From: a virus
IMG/VR virus record: IMGVR_UViG_3300025117_000050
Location: 1-64,000 of that record
Strand: one strand, 5' to 3'
DNA: 64,000 nucleotides
The stretch's first letter is position 1. Each line of letters starts with the position of its first letter. This document shows positions 39,583-48,412 of the stretch, piece by piece. The notes under the pieces were generated by a model that had not been told where the DNA came from, did not search any database, and saw nothing but the letters and a program-made list of their open reading frames with translations. The translations under genes and the position numbers were made by a program.

Positions 39583-39596
39583 AAGGAGTGATTTTA

Positions 39597-40037
39597 ATGA
39601 TTATTAAAACTCAAACTGCTAATGCTGTTAATGCTCAATGTTATAGGAAAGAGGAAGAGGTTGATTGGAGGTCGTGGTGTCCTAAACGTGGAGAGATTTA
39701 TTTGTGTCAGTTAGGAAATGAAGGTTTATTATATTCAGAAATTAAGGGTTATCGTCCAGTTTTAATAGCATCAAATGATATAGCGAACAGGCATAGCCCA
39801 GTAGTTACTATAATTCCATTAACTTCCAGTCAAATAAAAAATAACTTACCTGTTCATGTTAAAGTAGGGGTAGAAGAAGGGTTGCGAAATTTGAGTTTAA
39901 TTTGTTGCGAGCAGACTAAAACTGTGTCAAAAAATAGAATGTTTATAAACGGTAGTTTAGTTAAAATATGCAAATTAAGTAATGAATTAATGTGTAAAGT
40001 GGACAACGCATTAAAAATACAATTCGGATTAGTTTAA
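39597..40037 (+). CDS. MazF/PemK-like endoribonuclease-fold protein
   Basis: 146 residues from ATG 39597 (AAGGAGTGATTTTA). Residues 28-145 follow MazF: CPKRGEIYLCQLG, GYRPVLIASNDIANRHSPVV (Arg53 and Ser67 at the usual catalytic positions), TIIPLTS, LPVHVKVG, CEQTKTVSKNR, KVDNALKIQFGL. MazF toxins cut mRNA at short sites. No antitoxin gene is adjacent; its promoter has two palindromes. A paralogue is fused to an HTH domain at 43333. Confidence 0.85.
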   Translation: MIIKTQTANAVNAQCYRKEEEVDWRSWCPKRGEIYLCQLGNEGLLYSEIKGYRPVLIASNDIANRHSPVVTIIPLTSSQIKNNLPVHVKVGVEEGLRNLSLICCEQTKTVSKNRMFINGSLVKICKLSNELMCKVDNALKIQFGLV

Positions 40038-40184: not shown

Positions 40185-41543
40185 TTGTTAGTTAAAAATC
40201 AAAAAGTTAAAGTTAAATGGAATGGAGCACATAGAAAATATTATGAAGAAAAAGGTTATCCATTTACTAATTATGGTGATGAATTAGAGATAGACATAAA
40301 AGATTTAGCACCAAAAAGTCAAAAATATGTTTTAGTTAGTTGTGATTATTGCGGTATACCATTTATGAGGAGGTATTGTAATTACAATACAAGAAAAGAA
40401 AAATACGGTAAAGATGATAAAGATTGTTGTGATGATTGCAGAGTACATAAAAGAGAAGAAACATGTTTAGATAAATATGGTTTTAAAAATGCTGTTCAAG
40501 TAGAAGAAATACAAAATAAAATAAAAGAAACTATTAAGGAAAAATATGGAGTAGAATATATATCTCAAGTAGAAGAAATTAAAAATAAAAAGAAACAAAC
40601 TTGTTTAGATAGATATGGAGTAGAATATACCTTGCAAGTTCCAGAGATTAGAGAAATGATTATAGAAACTAATATAAATAAATATGGAGTTGAAAATCCA
40701 TTTCAAAATGAAGAAATTAAAGAAAAAATCAGACAAGTCAATATGGATAAATATGGTGTAGAATATCCAATGCAATTACCTGAAATAAGAGAAAAAAGTC
40801 AAGAAACAACTTTTAAAAATCTTGGTGTTAAATATGCTATGCAATCTTATAAAACACAAGAAAAAAATAAACAATCTATTCAAGATAAATACGGATATAC
40901 AAATATTTTTCAGATACCAGAGATAAAAGAAAAAATAAAGAAAATTAATATTAAAAAATATGGAGCGGAAAATCCTTTAAATAATAAAGAAATTAGAGAA
41001 AAAGCTAATAAAACTATAAAAGATAAATATGGTGTTGATAATGTTTCACAGAATCCAGAAATACAAGCAAAAATTAGACGTTCATTTTATAAAAATGGTA
41101 CTACTCCTACTTCAATTCAACAAAGATATATTTGTTTTTTAGTAAACGGTAAATTAAATTTTCCTATTGGAAGAACAAATGCAGATATATTGATAAATAA
41201 TAATATAATTATTGAATATGATGGTGGTGGACATAATCTAAGTGTAAAAATAGGAAATATAACGCAAGATCAATTTAATAGAAAAGAAATTAAAAAATAT
41301 TATTTTTTAAAAAGTAAAGGATATAAGATTATTAGAATTGTATCTGCTAAAGATAATTTACCTAAAGAAGAGAAAAGATTAATTGATGCTATAAATATAG
41401 CAATTGATTATTTAAATCAAAATCATTCTTGGTTTGAAATAAATATTGATGATGGAAAATTAAGATGTATTTGTTATGAAAAAGATTATAATTTTGGAGA
41501 ATTAAGAAGAGGAACAAAAGAAAATTTAGCTATAAATACATAA
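40185..41543 (+). CDS. putative homing endonuclease with repeats (DUF7487-like)
   Basis: 452 residues from TTG 40185 after AAAGGAGG. N-terminal zinc cluster CDYCGIPF and CCDDC. Then about eight repeats of 27-28 residues with the core KYGVE(Y/N)..Q..EI..KI (residues about 88-300), of the sort that reads DNA. The C-terminus (INNNIIIEYDGGGHN, then KKYYFLKSKGYKIIRI) resembles an EDxHD/Vsr-like nuclease: E-Y-D-G-G-H and a following strand. Likely a mobile endonuclease inserted between the MazF-like and DUF5317 genes. Confidence 0.7.
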   Translation: MLVKNQKVKVKWNGAHRKYYEEKGYPFTNYGDELEIDIKDLAPKSQKYVLVSCDYCGIPFMRRYCNYNTRKEKYGKDDKDCCDDCRVHKREETCLDKYGFKNAVQVEEIQNKIKETIKEKYGVEYISQVEEIKNKKKQTCLDRYGVEYTLQVPEIREMIIETNINKYGVENPFQNEEIKEKIRQVNMDKYGVEYPMQLPEIREKSQETTFKNLGVKYAMQSYKTQEKNKQSIQDKYGYTNIFQIPEIKEKIKKINIKKYGAENPLNNKEIREKANKTIKDKYGVDNVSQNPEIQAKIRRSFYKNGTTPTSIQQRYICFLVNGKLNFPIGRTNADILINNNIIIEYDGGGHNLSVKIGNITQDQFNRKEIKKYYFLKSKGYKIIRIVSAKDNLPKEEKRLIDAINIAIDYLNQNHSWFEINIDDGKLRCICYEKDYNFGELRRGTKENLAINT

Positions 41544-41582: not shown

Positions 41583-42176
41583 TTGATTGAATTTATTATA
41601 GGAGCATTTTTATATGCTAAATTTAAAAAAGGTTATAAGTTAAAATACATATTTAAATACCCATACATATTTGCGATAATACCACCTTTATTATGTGTTT
41701 TACTATACATATATTTAGAATATTGTGTTTTTAATCAGCAATATTGGTTTTTCCCTTATCAACATATAATAAAGACTACAACGCTTATAAGTTATGTTCC
41801 GTTGATTTATATATATAATTTATATTATAATGATATATATGAAAATGATACATTAAAATCATTTTTAACATCTCCTGCTAGTAAAACTACATTTTGTTTA
41901 GGATTAGGCTCATTTTTAAACTATATGGCAATTATCTCTAACAATATGAAAATGCCAGTATTTCCCAGTAATTGTTATTGGACTGGTTATATTAAACCTG
42001 AATTCATTAATGATGGTTTACATGTGCTAGGTGATGCTTATACTAAAGCAATCCCCTTATGCGATTGGATCGATTTTGGAATATATGTAGCTAGTCCAGG
42101 TGATATATTAATAAGATCATTTGCATTTTTAATTATTTATCATTCTATAAAAAATTCTAATAAAATGATAAAATAA
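41583..42176 (+). CDS. DUF5317-like membrane protein
   Basis: 197 residues from TTG 41583 after AAAGGAGG. Spans at about 1-13, 29-46, 66-80, 103-120 and 172-188. The segments SNNMKMPVFPSN and VASPGDILIRSFAF fit the DUF5317 family of clostridial membrane proteins (NxxKMPV and SPGDI). Unknown function. Lies just upstream of the Agr-like genes, with a promoter between, so an accessory role in that circuit is possible. Confidence 0.65.
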   Translation: MIEFIIGAFLYAKFKKGYKLKYIFKYPYIFAIIPPLLCVLLYIYLEYCVFNQQYWFFPYQHIIKTTTLISYVPLIYIYNLYYNDIYENDTLKSFLTSPASKTTFCLGLGSFLNYMAIISNNMKMPVFPSNCYWTGYIKPEFINDGLHVLGDAYTKAIPLCDWIDFGIYVASPGDILIRSFAFLIIYHSIKNSNKMIK

Positions 42177-42208
42177 TTGTTGACACATAATTAACTCTGT
42201 GGTAATAT
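42164..42208 (+). promoter_or_regulatory. promoter of Agr-like operon
   Basis: TTGACA (42180-42185), 17 bases, TAATAT. AATGATAAAATAATTG abuts the -35 box, as at 24841. It overlaps the end of the DUF5317 gene. Confidence 0.7.
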
Positions 42209-42244: not shown

Positions 42245-43039
42245 ATGATACATGATATTACAAATGCTTTGTTAAATTTTTTACTTGTAAGTGTTTTGGA
42301 GGAGTTTGTATGGTTGTTAATAACCATAATATTATTAAAAAGATTTGATTTGCTTGATAGATATAGATGGAAAGAGAGTATGCGAGAATTTTTAATACCT
42401 ATCTTACCAACTGCACTTTATATCAATTTATCTAGATATGTTTTACATATGCCTAGAATAATAATATTATTTGGATGTATATTTATATTTTATGGTTTGA
42501 CATTATATATAATAAAGAAAAATTCATTTATAGATGAAAAATTACCATATTTAAAAATATTAATGTTTGTATTTATAGGTATTCTTATTATAGGAATAAC
42601 AGAATTGATTTATATGCCAATAATTTTATATATTATACAACAACCAGTAACAATAATGAATCAAAATATTTTAATGAATTTTGCATTTTCAATACCATCT
42701 AGAATATTTCAAATATTATTAATTCTTGCATTAATTTATAAATATAATGAAATTAAATTATTCAGCAATATAATAAAAGATAAAGTATTATTAATTATTA
42801 CAGTGTTGTTTTTAAGTATTATATTGCTAATAGTATTTATTACAACAAAAATTATTCATAGTTATTGTTTAATTTTAAACTTTTCTTTATATTCACAAAT
42901 ATTAATTGGAATTAGCATAACAACAATTATAACATTAATAATATTTTTTTATCTTATTCCAATTAATTATTTAATAAATAAAATGTTTTTACTTAACAAA
43001 TCACATCAAAATATGTTTGATGATGATTATATAGATTAA
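42245..43039 (+). CDS. AgrC-like membrane sensor lacking a kinase domain
   Basis: 264 residues, AAGGAGTTGATAGAGAA site. Begins like clostridial AgrC sensors (DITNALLNFLLVSVLEEFVW, LLITIILLKRF) and has about seven hydrophobic segments (10-30, 47-62, 68-92, 104-130, 145-165, 178-202, 210-246). AgrC then continues into a His-kinase of about 200 residues; here the frame ends at NKMFLLNKSHQNMFDDDYID, with no His box or ATPase motifs and no continuation in other frames. AgrD follows 21 bases later. It may be a decoy receptor, a regulator of the host AgrC or a non-kinase signal receptor. Confidence 0.65.
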   Translation: MIHDITNALLNFLLVSVLEEFVWLLITIILLKRFDLLDRYRWKESMREFLIPILPTALYINLSRYVLHMPRIIILFGCIFIFYGLTLYIIKKNSFIDEKLPYLKILMFVFIGILIIGITELIYMPIILYIIQQPVTIMNQNILMNFAFSIPSRIFQILLILALIYKYNEIKLFSNIIKDKVLLIITVLFLSIILLIVFITTKIIHSYCLILNFSLYSQILIGISITTIITLIIFFYLIPINYLINKMFLLNKSHQNMFDDDYID

Positions 43040-43060: not shown

Positions 43061-43180
43061 ATGAAAAAGTTTGCAATTATTACTTCTTTAATTGGTATTA
43101 TCGGCATTATCTGTGCAAATTGTATTAATTCTGCTTGGACATTTAACCAACCGAAAGCACCATCTATGTTAGTTAAGTAA
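43061..43180 (+). CDS. agrD: AgrD-like cyclic-peptide propeptide
   Basis: 39 residues, GAAAGGAGGGAAATTTC site. Architecture of AgrD: an N-terminal amphipathic/hydrophobic helix (MKKFAIITSLIGIIGIIC), a core (NCINSAWTF, 20-28), then the recognition tail NQPKAPSML like the QPxxPxSL tail of clostridial AgrD. By alignment on QP the ring residue is Ser24, giving a five-residue SAWTF lactone; Cys21 would need a larger ring. AgrB (44627) would cleave after Phe28 and cyclise. Too short for usual ORF filters. Confidence 0.8.
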   Translation: MKKFAIITSLIGIIGIICANCINSAWTFNQPKAPSMLVK

Positions 43181-43199
43181 TTTATAACTACATAGAATA

Positions 43200-43235
43200 T
43201 TTATAGTAGAGGATGATTGTTTTCTCTACTATAAA
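43200..43235 (+). terminator. attenuator-like hairpin after agrD
   Basis: TTTATAGTAGAG/CTCTACTATAAA stem (43200-43211 with 43224-43235), 12-base loop, no long T-run. Between agrD and the next promoter; may reduce read-through or stabilise agrD mRNA. Confidence 0.5.
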
Positions 43236-43257
43236 TACAAAAAATAAATATAAATAC

Positions 43258-43332: not shown

Positions 43333-44229
43333 ATGTCAATATTATTTGGTAAGAAGAATGTATTAAAACCTACTTCTACAAATTCTATTTCTGAAATAAC
43401 AAAGAAAGAGTTAGCTTACAATATAAGAGTTGCCGTAGGTCATCGAAGTATTACTCAAGTCTGTAATATATTAAAAATGGTCGATCCAAAACCATTAGTT
43501 GACTTAATAAAAATGAATTATAATGAATTACCTGATAGACAATTACTTAGAAAAATTGCATCTGCAAGCGAAGGTAGGGTTTCTTATCAAAACCTTTATT
43601 CTGTCTGCGGTTATTCCGAATTTGATTCTGAAGAAGATCGTAGTTGGGCAAAGTGGGTTCCTGAACGTGGTAGTTGTTATATGATTGATTTAGGATGGAA
43701 TATGGATAGTGAGCAAAATTCTGTGCGTCCGGCAATAGTGATGCAAAACAACAAAGGCAATCAATACTCAGGAACAACCGTTATTATCCCTATATCTTCT
43801 CGTTCTAAAAAATTTTCTTCACAGATTCATGTATTATTAGAAAAAGAATTAGGATTTTTACGGGAATGTCAATGTTTTCCAGAACAAATTCGCTGTGTTT
43901 CAAAAAGGAGGTTCTTCTATAATTCTGTACCTTATAAAATCACTACTTTACCAGAACATAAATTATTAGAAATCAAAAACGCACTTGAGTTTGAACTAGG
44001 TTTTGAGCCTTTATATTTTGACGAAGAAAAAATATTTAAATTAATTTCTCATATTCGTTCTTTAGAAAATAATATTAAAATCAAAAAATCACATAATCTA
44101 ATTGATATATTAAATCAAAAAATGGATGATCTAAAAGAATACTGTTCAAAATATCATAAGAATCACAAGATTATCTTACAAGAATACGATAGAATCAACA
44201 ATTGCGGTTACAATGCAGTATCCATATAA
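43333..44229 (+). CDS. HTH-MazF fusion protein
   Basis: 298 residues after GAGGAGTGATTAATA. Residues 20-97 look like an XRE-type helical DNA-binding/repressor end (LAYNIRVAVGHRSITQVCNI, then LLRKIASASEGRVSYQNLYS). Residues 108-225 are MazF-like: WVPERGSCYMIDLG, SVRPAIVMQNN (Arg132), SGTTVIIPISS, QIHVLL, EQIRCVSKRR, LEIKNALEFELGF. The last 65 residues form a coiled coil. Between agrD and agrB, it is a candidate output of the circuit: RNA cleavage and DNA binding in one chain. C-ending codons are more frequent than in flanking genes. Confidence 0.8.
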   Translation: MSILFGKKNVLKPTSTNSISEITKKELAYNIRVAVGHRSITQVCNILKMVDPKPLVDLIKMNYNELPDRQLLRKIASASEGRVSYQNLYSVCGYSEFDSEEDRSWAKWVPERGSCYMIDLGWNMDSEQNSVRPAIVMQNNKGNQYSGTTVIIPISSRSKKFSSQIHVLLEKELGFLRECQCFPEQIRCVSKRRFFYNSVPYKITTLPEHKLLEIKNALEFELGFEPLYFDEEKIFKLISHIRSLENNIKIKKSHNLIDILNQKMDDLKEYCSKYHKNHKIILQEYDRINNCGYNAVSI

Positions 44230-44291: not shown

Positions 44292-44633
44292 ATGATAATC
44301 TTTGATGAAAAACAATTAAAATACTTATTTAATAAATACAAAATAAGATATAAAATATTTGAAGAAACAAATATTCTACTTATAGATAGTGGTCTTGATG
44401 AGTGGTTAATCAAGTATCAACATGGAAGAGATCAACCATATTGCCTTATGCACAAAAATAAATTAAAACAAACTAAAAGGTTCCATGTGCAGAGATGGTT
44501 GTCAAATTTTTATCAATCACTTGATAGTCTATTGTCACATAAAAATATTTTTGTAGATCATTCAAGTTCAAAAAATACATATAAAAAATATAGAAATAAT
44601 AAAATAAATAATAAAAGGAGAAAAAGTTGTTAA
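44292..44633 (+). CDS. hypothetical basic protein in Agr-like cluster
   Basis: 113 residues, AAAGGAGATCAATTAAA site. Aromatic and basic with a disordered Lys/Asn tail; no HTH or catalytic motif recognised. Overlaps the AgrB start by 7 bases, so the two are translationally coupled. Confidence 0.6.
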   Translation: MIIFDEKQLKYLFNKYKIRYKIFEETNILLIDSGLDEWLIKYQHGRDQPYCLMHKNKLKQTKRFHVQRWLSNFYQSLDSLLSHKNIFVDHSSSKNTYKKYRNNKINNKRRKSC

Positions 44634-45421
44634 AATATATAAAAAACTACATAATAACATTTCGTTATATCAAACTATTCTCATATTGGAATGCAAGATA
44701 TTTGCATAACAAACTAAAAGAAGAAAGAATTAGAGAATCACAAAACTTACATAATCCACATAAAGAAAAACATAAATATTATTATATATTGCAAATGATA
44801 ATTAAAAAATTATTTCAAATAATTAATAAAATAATTTCTTTAACTCCATTAGGAAGAAAACTATCATCGTACATAACTGAAAAATATTCACAATATAAAC
44901 AGAAAGAGAAAAAACCTAAAAAAATATACAACAGATACACCTACTATTATGGTCTTCAAATAATCATCGGAGGCATAAATAAATTCCTTCTACTAATCAT
45001 ACCAGGCTTACTATTTAACATCTTGCCGCAACTATTACTAACCACGTTATCATTTGTATCACTAAGAATATGGACTGGTGGTCTGCACTACAATTCTTAT
45101 ACCAAATGCAGCTACATATCACTATTATCCTTCACACTCACAGCACTACTATCAAAATACATCATATTAAATCAATTTATCACTATGTCAATATTTCTAT
45201 CTGTATTTATATTAATTTTAATCTATGCCCCTGTAGAACATCCAAACAGACCAATAAAAGAAAAAGAAAAAATTAAATACAAATTAATCGCATTATTTGT
45301 ATTAAGCACCTTAACTATTATCTATATGTTTACAAATAATGTTATTATCTGTAATTCTATTATATATGGGATATTATTAGCAGGTATAATTATGTTACCA
45401 ATTATAAATAAACTAAGATAA
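44627..45421 (+). CDS. agrB: AgrB-like peptide-processing membrane protease
   Basis: 264 residues from TTG 44627 (AAAGGAGAAAAAG). Residues about 100-264 are AgrB: YYYGLQIIIGGINKFLLLII, SLRIWTGGLHYNSYTKCSYI with catalytic His154 and Cys161 seven residues apart as in known AgrB, then YAPVEHPNRPI and two further spans. The first 95 residues are an unusual Lys-rich extension compared with the usual 190-210-residue protein. AgrB cleaves AgrD C-terminally and forms the ring in the membrane. Confidence 0.88.
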   Translation: MLKYIKNYIITFRYIKLFSYWNARYLHNKLKEERIRESQNLHNPHKEKHKYYYILQMIIKKLFQIINKIISLTPLGRKLSSYITEKYSQYKQKEKKPKKIYNRYTYYYGLQIIIGGINKFLLLIIPGLLFNILPQLLLTTLSFVSLRIWTGGLHYNSYTKCSYISLLSFTLTALLSKYIILNQFITMSIFLSVFILILIYAPVEHPNRPIKEKEKIKYKLIALFVLSTLTIIYMFTNNVIICNSIIYGILLAGIIMLPIINKLR

Positions 45422-45959: not shown

Positions 45960-47336
45960 ATGCTTAATATTAAAAATGCTATGTTGATAAAAGAATTAAA
46001 ACCACTAATAATTAAATATGGAAACAATTCAAAAATTTATAATCTTGTTCACGAATCCTTTATTAAAAAGGGTTTAACGGGTAGTAATGCAAAAAATCTA
46101 TTTACAGGTAAACTACCATTAGAATCTTTAGATATCACTTGTCAAAAAGAATTATATTTATTATTTTCTTTTACTGATAGCATGAGAAAAGCATTAAATT
46201 CATTTGATGAAATGTCTAAAGATACTTTTGGTTCAGAAGAAGAGTACTCAAAATTAAAACTAGAAAATTATTTTACTCCTATGGAAATTGAAGAGTTTAC
46301 GGATTTCGTGATAGAGAAAGAAGAAATAAGTAGATATCCTTACAGATTAAAAAACATGTTAAAAGTTGGGGAAAATCACTATATAGGCATTATATCTGCT
46401 AGAGAATTATCTTGGATAGATGCCTCCAATGACATTGTTTATGATTTCGCTGTACAGCGTGATCCCAAAATTGATATATTTGGCATGAAACGTATTAATA
46501 CTGATTTAAAGAAAATAGATGAAATGACAGAGAAGTTACTTTCTGGCAATTACTTTTCAGATGAAATTAAGTTAAATGTTAAGAATGATGGTGAAGATCA
46601 TATCGAATTCGATTCAAAAGACGGAATTTATGGTGATCTTATTATTCATTCAGGAACAATAACTTGTTTTGACGGTTATCACAGAAAAGCAGCCAATTCA
46701 AAAGTTATGAATATTAATAATGAATTGCAATTTAATTGGAAACTAGGTGTTACTAACTATCCAGAACCTAAAGCAAAAAAATTCATGATTCAAATTAACA
46801 AACAAAAACCTATTAAGATTGAACACATCAGAAATATTGATGAAACAAGAAATGAAAATGTAATTGTCAATAATATTATCAATAATTCTAATTCCGAACT
46901 TGCTGATAAGATTAAAGATTCTGATGCAGAATTAAAACATGGTGGATTAACTAAAAAATCTATATTATCTTTAGCAATAGAAGAACAATATAAGGAATTT
47001 TTAGTTACTAAAATCAATAATATTGAAATATCTAATTGGATAGTAGAATTCACAAATCATTTAATGGGATTATATACTAACGAATTTTTATTTAATGTAG
47101 ACAAAACTAAAAAAATAAGTTATATTAATCATAAGAATATGTTTATGGGATATATCGCACTTTCAAGAAAATTGTATAAGCAAGATGATTGGAAAAATAA
47201 AACTAAAAAAATAATGGAAAGCGTTGATTTTAGCATTGATAATGATATTTGGAAAAGTATTAAAATCAATGAAGATAATTTAAATAAAACATCAAAGAAT
47301 GAATTATATAATATATTTATTAAAAAGCAGGTGTAA
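45960..47336 (+). CDS. YopQ-like DGYHR protein (DndB/ParB-fold type)
   Basis: 458 residues after AAAGAGGTGAGTAACT. FAVQRDPKID (163-172) and ITCFDGYHRKAAN (234-246) are the two signatures of DGQHR/DndB-like proteins with a ParB/Srx-like core. Size, motif and position directly before an integrase-fold protein match SPbeta YopQ (460 residues) next to YopR. In SPbeta these genes lie in the lysogeny region; YopQ's biochemical role is not settled as far as I know. Confidence 0.7.
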   Translation: MLNIKNAMLIKELKPLIIKYGNNSKIYNLVHESFIKKGLTGSNAKNLFTGKLPLESLDITCQKELYLLFSFTDSMRKALNSFDEMSKDTFGSEEEYSKLKLENYFTPMEIEEFTDFVIEKEEISRYPYRLKNMLKVGENHYIGIISARELSWIDASNDIVYDFAVQRDPKIDIFGMKRINTDLKKIDEMTEKLLSGNYFSDEIKLNVKNDGEDHIEFDSKDGIYGDLIIHSGTITCFDGYHRKAANSKVMNINNELQFNWKLGVTNYPEPKAKKFMIQINKQKPIKIEHIRNIDETRNENVIVNNIINNSNSELADKIKDSDAELKHGGLTKKSILSLAIEEQYKEFLVTKINNIEISNWIVEFTNHLMGLYTNEFLFNVDKTKKISYINHKNMFMGYIALSRKLYKQDDWKNKTKKIMESVDFSIDNDIWKSIKINEDNLNKTSKNELYNIFIKKQV

Positions 47337-47341
47337 AATAA

Positions 47342-48412
47342 ATGGTAAAACATAGAAACGGGAGAAAAAATTTAGCAGAAAGAGTGTTTAAGCATGATAG
47401 AGATGTTAAAGAAGAATTCTTAAAATCATTGAAACCCTCAACTGCTAATACTGTAAGAAGTATACTTTTTAAGGTAGATGAATATGAAGAATTAATTGGG
47501 AAAAGTATATATGATTTTAATTTAGATGATCGTGATGATTTTATTATATCTATGTTCCCTAATAAAAGTAAAGGTGTTATTAATACAACTAGATCATATC
47601 TGGTAGGATATATTAATTATTGTATTGACAATAACCTTGTTAGACATATGGAAAATAGATTTAGTTTAATCTCTAAAGATGATATAGATAATTATGTCAA
47701 TGATATGGCTATGCAAATGAAGTACCTGTCGAAGGAAGAAATTAAAGAAGCACAAAGTAAATTGGTTAATAATTGTGATAAATTAATTTTGCAATTAGTT
47801 CCTTTATCAGCCAGAGGTCGCACCGAAAAGGATAATACTAATGAAGAATTAATAAATTTAAGAGTGCAAGATGCTGTAGAATCTTACGAAAAAGGCAATC
47901 TAAAACTTTGGAATAATGATGGAGATTTTAGGTATATAAAAATTGATGATGAAACAATAGAATTATTAAAGAAAACTATAAATGATGATAAATATATCAT
48001 TAATAATGGAAGTGAATATAGTCGTAAAAGACATGATAAAAAACTTGGCAGAGGCATGGGAGAAAAAAGTTTCCCTTTAAATGATACTGGCTATGTTTTT
48101 AGAACTGCTGGCAAGAATAAAAGGGGTAAAGTTAAATCCAATTATTTTAATTCTAAAATTAATATAATAAAAGATTGGGTGGAGAATCCATTTATTAACA
48201 TAACTAATTTACACGCATCAGGTATGATTGATTATGTCATCCAATTAGAAAATGAAAAAGGAGAAGAATTAGATAATAACGACTATATAGATGTTTGTGA
48301 AAAATATTTATTTGGTAAACCTAGAATTTTGCCCAATGGTGAAAATGATTGGAGTATGTCAATATCAAAATTAAAGACAATGGTAAAAGATTATATTAAT
48401 ATTAAATCATAA
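47342..48412 (+). CDS. MrpR (YopR)-like integrase-fold repressor
   Basis: 356 residues, GCAGGTG site, 5 bases after the yopQ-like gene. Residues 22-110 resemble an integrase SAM-like N-terminal domain; LVPLSARGRTEKDNTNEELI (152-171) corresponds to the catalytic-Arg box. The HxxR box is degenerate (LHASGMIDYV at 290-299) and no clear active-site Tyr follows, as in SPbeta MrpR, a recombinase turned lysogeny repressor. Operon with the YopQ-like and DUF4046 genes. An active integrase is less likely. Confidence 0.7.
   Translation: MVKHRNGRKNLAERVFKHDRDVKEEFLKSLKPSTANTVRSILFKVDEYEELIGKSIYDFNLDDRDDFIISMFPNKSKGVINTTRSYLVGYINYCIDNNLVRHMENRFSLISKDDIDNYVNDMAMQMKYLSKEEIKEAQSKLVNNCDKLILQLVPLSARGRTEKDNTNEELINLRVQDAVESYEKGNLKLWNNDGDFRYIKIDDETIELLKKTINDDKYIINNGSEYSRKRHDKKLGRGMGEKSFPLNDTGYVFRTAGKNKRGKVKSNYFNSKINIIKDWVENPFINITNLHASGMIDYVIQLENEKGEELDNNDYIDVCEKYLFGKPRILPNGENDWSMSISKLKTMVKDYINIKS

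Follow-up and report, generated by a model that had tools for sequence, protein, structure and literature searches.

A phage agr cassette with a conserved serine at the AgrD ring position lies beside the lysogeny genes yopQ and mrpR

Several described systems resemble the agr cassette that we report here from the window, a stretch of 64,000 nucleotides (bases 1-64000 of the 96.7-kb IMG/VR virus record IMGVR_UViG_3300025117_000050). Phage-borne agr genes are already known. Both agrB and agrD are carried by phiCDHM1 and by the phages Davies, Emery, and Abouo (Brevibacillus/Paenibacillus), and AgrC-like membrane proteins without a kinase stand beside agrB in three Paenibacillus/Brevibacillus phages (PMC3901668). 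Among bacteria, host genes in C. perfringens are under the control of the CPE1563-CPE1562-agrB-agrD operon (PMC2706048). Chemical work has established serine lactones in the Staphylococcus intermedius group, and Enterococcus faecalis GBAP has a lactone ring (PMC3673130). The SPbeta-group Bacillus phages use arbitrium (AimR-AimP-AimX); in phi3T, AimR acts on a terminator that follows aimP, and MazF serves as the arbitrium effector (PMC10769878). The SPbeta master repressor is MrpR (PMC10516654).

The window carries agrD and agrB a few kilobases upstream of an adjacent yopQ and yopR/mrpR pair, the lysogeny module of SPbeta-like phages. These genes point to an SPbeta-like clostridial phage as the most likely source. 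The record covers a fragment of the phage genome, and all absences within it apply to that fragment. Its main features are as follows (Q-6 is the sixth residue before the Gln or Glu of the [QE]P tail).

42245-43039, plus strand: REC, a putative receptor, 264-amino-acid multi-helix membrane protein without a kinase domain; orthologues in three phages
43061-43180, plus strand: agrD, propeptide of 39 amino acids; matches a clostridial AgrD profile, with orthologues in phages L165, L168, and L170 at 34-44% identity to the window
43130-43144, plus strand: predicted ring SAWTF (Ser24 to Phe28); Ser at Q-6 invariant in four phages
43333-44229, plus strand: PemK/MazF-like protein with N- and C-terminal extensions (PF02452, E 3e-17); three agr-bearing phages have an orthologue in this position
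44627-45421, plus strand: agrB, 264 amino acids, TTG start, catalytic His154 and Cys161 (PF04647, E 9e-37)
45960-47336, plus strand: yopQ-like gene (phrog_5732, E 2e-62; tblastn matches to SPbeta and phi3T yopQ)
47342-48412, plus strand: mrpR/yopR-like gene (PF22822, E 4e-13; tblastn to SPbeta yopR, E 1e-9)

Sequence comparison confirms that the open reading frame (ORF) at 43061-43180 on the plus strand encodes an AgrD propeptide. A preliminary description had proposed this for an unannotated ORF, naming a leader, a core, and a QPxxP tail. All three parts are present in the 39-amino-acid product, MKKFAIITSLIGIIGIICANCINSAWTFNQPKAPSMLVK, whose leader is hydrophobic and whose tail fits [QE]P-x-x-P; AGGAGGG, a strong ribosome-binding site, lies 5' of the gene. 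We gathered small ORFs adjoining clostridial agrB genes, made a profile from 72 AgrDs, and ran it on all 607 ORFs of the record. The agrD ORF came out on top (E 1.8e-4; runner-up 0.89), and a true agrB lies downstream. The ring nucleophile (Cys or Ser) stands at the conserved distance from QP, here as Ser at Q-6, and the Phe at Q-2 and Asn at Q-1 are found at the same places in other AgrDs. No Pfam or NCBIfam AgrD model matches the ORF, including the curated model PF05931, which in control genomes scored only below its own cut-off. PHROG 17065 matches weakly (E 0.006).

AgrB retains the domain and the catalytic His and Cys of an AgrB peptidase, and its motif GG[LV]H[YF]N[SN]YTKC is invariant across four phages. 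An AgrB-processed signal is the prediction that we hold most firmly. The 39-residue product might instead be an uncyclised small membrane peptide, or the cassette might have decayed: the leader is strongly hydrophobic, 1.4 kb separate agrD from the downstream agrB, and a curated AgrD match is lacking. This is very improbable, however, given the intact AgrB, a QP/EP..P tail kept in four phages, and intact cassette ORFs with good ribosome-binding sites.

The serine at the ring position is conserved among divergent phages. The C termini of the four phage AgrDs read SAWTFNQPKAPSMLVK (window), SHLLFNEPRVPSMLSK (L165), SFMWLNQPKTPSMLSK (L168), and SLMWLHQPKTPSELR (L170), with the cores SAWTFN, SHLLFN, SFMWLN, and SLMWLH. 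Ser at Q-6 is the sole invariant residue before [QE]P (n=4), and the L168 and L170 AgrDs contain no Cys anywhere. Outside phages, the nearest AgrB that we found in bacteria belongs to locus L172, whose AgrD likewise lacks Cys and carries Ser at Q-6. With Ser invariant and two orthologues Cys-free, Ser24 has the best support as the ring residue, and Cys21 is best read as part of the tail. Ring closure through Ser24 is probable on this alignment, and a lactone is predicted.

Ser24 occupies the place of the clostridial ring Cys, as the preliminary description had held. Across a class-wide sample of 60 clostridial AgrDs, Cys stands at Q-6 in 37 and at Q-7 in nine, Ser at Q-6 in seven (~12%) and at Q-7 in two, and neither in five; these counts are descriptive, as they depend on the [QE]P..P picking pattern and the sampled sequences are related. 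A second set, of 14 AgrDs, was collected through an AgrB motif and is hence biased; every member carries Ser at Q-6. Cys is absent from Q-5 to Q-12 in about half of the Ser-type AgrDs. Some similar AgrDs differ in having Cys or Ser at the ring position (L047/L049 versus L059; L090/L117 versus L094). By these sequences, Clostridia repeatedly carry Ser at the ring position, though in a minority of AgrDs, and the rarity claimed for it earlier was overstated. We rejected the serine as a one-off, since it occurs at Q-6 in other clostridial AgrDs and in all four phages. AgrB relatedness gave no guide to the Ser or Cys type, because the closest class-wide AgrBs mostly lack a recognisable AgrD.

The two upstream Cys were also noted in the preliminary description, as a source of larger rings. 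They are present, Cys21 at Q-9 and Cys18 at Q-12, and Cys21 could close an eight-residue thiolactone, CINSAWTF, with Ser24 inside the ring. The L165 orthologue retains Cys at Q-9, and in five AgrDs of the class sample the nearest Cys lies at Q-8; rings of more than six residues may therefore occur. However, Cys is not conserved among the phage orthologues, which makes the larger ring highly unlikely: L168 and L170 lack any Cys, with Ser at Q-6 invariant. Moreover, L047 and L049 carry a Q-9 Cys alongside the Q-6 ring Cys, and the similar L059 keeps the Q-9 Cys with Ser at Q-6, which argues that Q-9 is a tail position. Like the S. intermedius group and GBAP, the window is predicted to make a lactone, not a thiolactone. 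Those systems differ in that they belong to other genera and use AgrC/FsrC kinases, and the GBAP ring is four residues larger (PMC3673130).

In the proposed mechanism, AgrB would cut AgrD after Phe28 via Cys161, and the Ser24 hydroxyl would close the five-residue lactone SAWTF. The peptide would leave the cell with a short N-terminal tail. The neighbouring kinase-less REC would sense it, whether in the producing cell or in other infected cells, and the lysis-lysogeny decision would be the output, through the PemK/MazF-like gene beside agrD and/or the downstream yopQ-mrpR.

The phage location and the conserved lysogeny module around agrD were missed in the preliminary description. The window order is DUF5317, REC, agrD, hairpin, PemK/MazF-like, X, agrB, small ORF, yopQ, mrpR, with these further features.

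41583-42176, plus strand: DUF5317 membrane protein, 197 amino acids, TTG start, agr-associated (PF17248, E 9e-13)
42180-42208, plus strand: promoter-like TTGACA-17-TAATAT upstream of REC and agrD (10/12 in a consensus scan; common by chance in an AT-rich region)
43198-43237, plus strand: 16-bp RNA hairpin directly after agrD, without a U-tract (minimum free energy -19.4, z -4.95)
44292-44633, plus strand: ORF X, 113 amino acids; orthologues in L165 and L168
45601-45861, plus strand: small ORF, 86 amino acids; a weakly similar ORF occupies this position in L165
45884-45912, plus strand: perfect promoter-like TTGACA-17-TATAAT before yopQ (12/12)

The whole order is kept in L165, a locus on a 149-kb contig found by a genome search with YopQ; its class, Clostridia, is that of the starting locus of the search (L015). 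An alignment of an AgrB pair brought up three viral contigs: L168 and L169, which are a single phage from two samples and have the window gene order, and L170, with the same order minus DUF5317 and X. Since these viral matches came via AgrB, they are unusable for the frequency of agr among yopQ-mrpR loci. Identity among the four phages is 34-40% for REC, 33-48% for AgrB, 39-60% for PemK, 36-46% for YopQ, 33-58% for MrpR, and 34-56% for AgrD, and 29-60% for the cassette proteins overall. With identities this low, the four cassettes are not recent copies of one another.

The relatives in viral contigs surfaced only after the alignment of an orthologue pair served as query. Single-protein searches of viral contigs with AgrB, REC, or YopQ found no relatives, nor did phage and plasmid records searched singly with AgrB and REC. 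The sole match of an MrpR search in viral contigs was L002, another fragment of the same phage. We set aside most YopQ-profile matches in bacterial genomes (L152-L158), which have no mrpR.

REC is most likely the sensor of the AgrD-derived signal. It has no Pfam match and no kinase domain and so is not an AgrC sensor kinase. Within the 96.7-kb record we detected neither HATPase_c_5 nor LytTR (the AgrA-type regulator domain), and hence no full agr two-component system. Full-length, kinase-less REC homologues (~280-340 amino acids) adjoin agrD/agrB in bacterial loci L143, L145, and L146. XRE-type regulators neighbour REC homologues in L121, L123, and L146 and are possible signaling partners. An AlphaFold model of REC is all-helical and of low confidence, and structure comparison of this model gave no PDB match.

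The position of the cassette recalls arbitrium. In SPBc2 (SPbeta) and phi3T, aimR-aimP lies ~2.3 kb upstream of the yopQ of the yopQ-mrpR pair. Both systems thus place their peptide genes a few kilobases upstream of yopQ-yopR/mrpR, with the receptor gene (putative in the window) directly before the peptide gene, then a hairpin, and in both a MazF-like function is implicated. The hairpin and MazF likeness to phi3T is suggestive, by analogy. The systems differ in their signals, since arbitrium pairs a linear peptide with a cytoplasmic RRNPP receptor, whereas the window has a predicted AgrB-processed peptide and a putative membrane receptor. An AimR search of the record with a single SPbeta query sequence, and no positive control, gave nothing at E<=1.

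Other agr systems share parts of the cassette. The clostridial operons (C. perfringens; L036-type loci) likewise combine two membrane proteins with agrB and agrD, one of them DUF5317 in the L036-type loci as in the window; we infer that CPE1563/CPE1562 are the same two proteins. They differ from the window in gene order, with PemK and ORF X separating agrD from agrB in the window, and in its ring Ser. REC has 264 amino acids versus ~150 in the clostridial operon, and the two are weakly alignable (hhalign P 0.001, probability 20%). Davies shares with the window kinase-less membrane proteins adjoining agrB, while phiCDHM1 encodes an AgrC with a HATPase domain. Neither phiCDHM1 nor the Davies-type phages are described beside yopQ-mrpR, and the Davies AgrB is 21% identical to that of the window. 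After agrB, Davies (L013, 13165-13659) has a Cys-free AgrD-like ORF of 39 amino acids, with a weak LytTR match in the next gene, and L029 has a near-identical AgrD-like ORF.

The main rival to a lysogeny role is a host-directed cassette. A real agr signal could manipulate the host (e.g., host agr, sporulation, or biofilm), with the mrpR neighbourhood as a convenient, lysogenically expressed site. Bacterial agr loci, too, have DUF5317 and a small membrane protein upstream of agrB, the C. perfringens operon governs host genes (PMC2706048), and phiCDHM1 agr has been proposed to act on its host (PMC3901668). Cargo would be expected to move, however, and four divergent phages keep the order, with PemK inside the cassette and yopQ-mrpR directly after it. 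We regard the host-directed reading as possible but rather doubtful.

Several observations weigh against a lysogeny role. The clostridial yopQ-mrpR loci L159, L166, and L167 have no agr genes in the stretch read, so agr is not required for this module. The promoter-like site before yopQ recurs at the same place in the three other phages (12/12, 11/12, and 10/12), which suggests that transcription of yopQ-mrpR need not depend on agr. The hairpins after agrD have no U-tracts and thus are not plain terminators. A kinase, response regulator, or AimR may sit outside the fragmentary record. The lysogeny link itself is drawn from synteny and homology. On this evidence, lysis-lysogeny control is the likeliest role of the cassette, at about even odds. 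The full reading, in which an SPbeta-like clostridial phage has agr as an integral part of its lysogeny module with a lysis-lysogeny output, has an equal chance of being right or wrong.

A strong hairpin lies 3' of agrD in all four phages, with a different sequence in each (z about -3.7 to -5.4). An Rfam search gave no match. We rejected the inverted repeat after agrD in the window as a repeated operator, as further copies occur at chance level. PemK-like genes also lie upstream of yopQ in two agr-less loci (L159, 9911-10510; L167, 1232-1810), and the MazF-like gene may have joined the lysogeny module before agr.

The window AgrB has an N-terminal extension (44627-44860) of ~60-75 residues relative to L165 and L170. 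L168 carries a partly similar one, so the extension is probably real and not an annotation error. DUF5317 homologues lie upstream of agrB in five clostridial loci, and the L165 and L168 orthologues are 43-55% identical. In bacterial loci L036, L044, L093, L110, and L098, agrB is preceded by a fixed pair, DUF5317 and a membrane protein of ~150-180 amino acids; in four of these five, agrD is followed by a GGDEF-like membrane protein (L098 ends before). Upstream of the cassette, the window has a second PemK/MazF-like gene (39588-40037; PF02452, E 5e-23) and, between that gene and the cassette, a DUF7487 protein (40185-41543) that matches a PHROG family named homing endonuclease.

In the literature searched, we did not find agr described as a conserved part of an SPbeta-type lysogeny module, and prior notice is possible. 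In one review, agr homologues of "SPbeta-like phages" receive a brief mention, and the work cited there deals with a different topic (PMC11945551). We tentatively propose, at a little short of an even chance, a form of phage communication other than arbitrium: a serine-lactone signal and a kinase-less receptor in clostridial SPbeta-like phages, acting on lysis-lysogeny via the MazF-like protein and MrpR.

Phage agr genes have been known since 2014 with no clear role assigned. Here, a phage family combines a conserved Ser at the ring position with a kinase-less receptor candidate. Because agr, a MazF-like gene, and the master repressor form one conserved block where SPbeta and phi3T have arbitrium, the role of agr can be tested directly. 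If the proposal is true, clostridial phages would use a bacterial-style signal where Bacillus phages use another, and unrelated peptide signaling systems would have been recruited to one phage switch.
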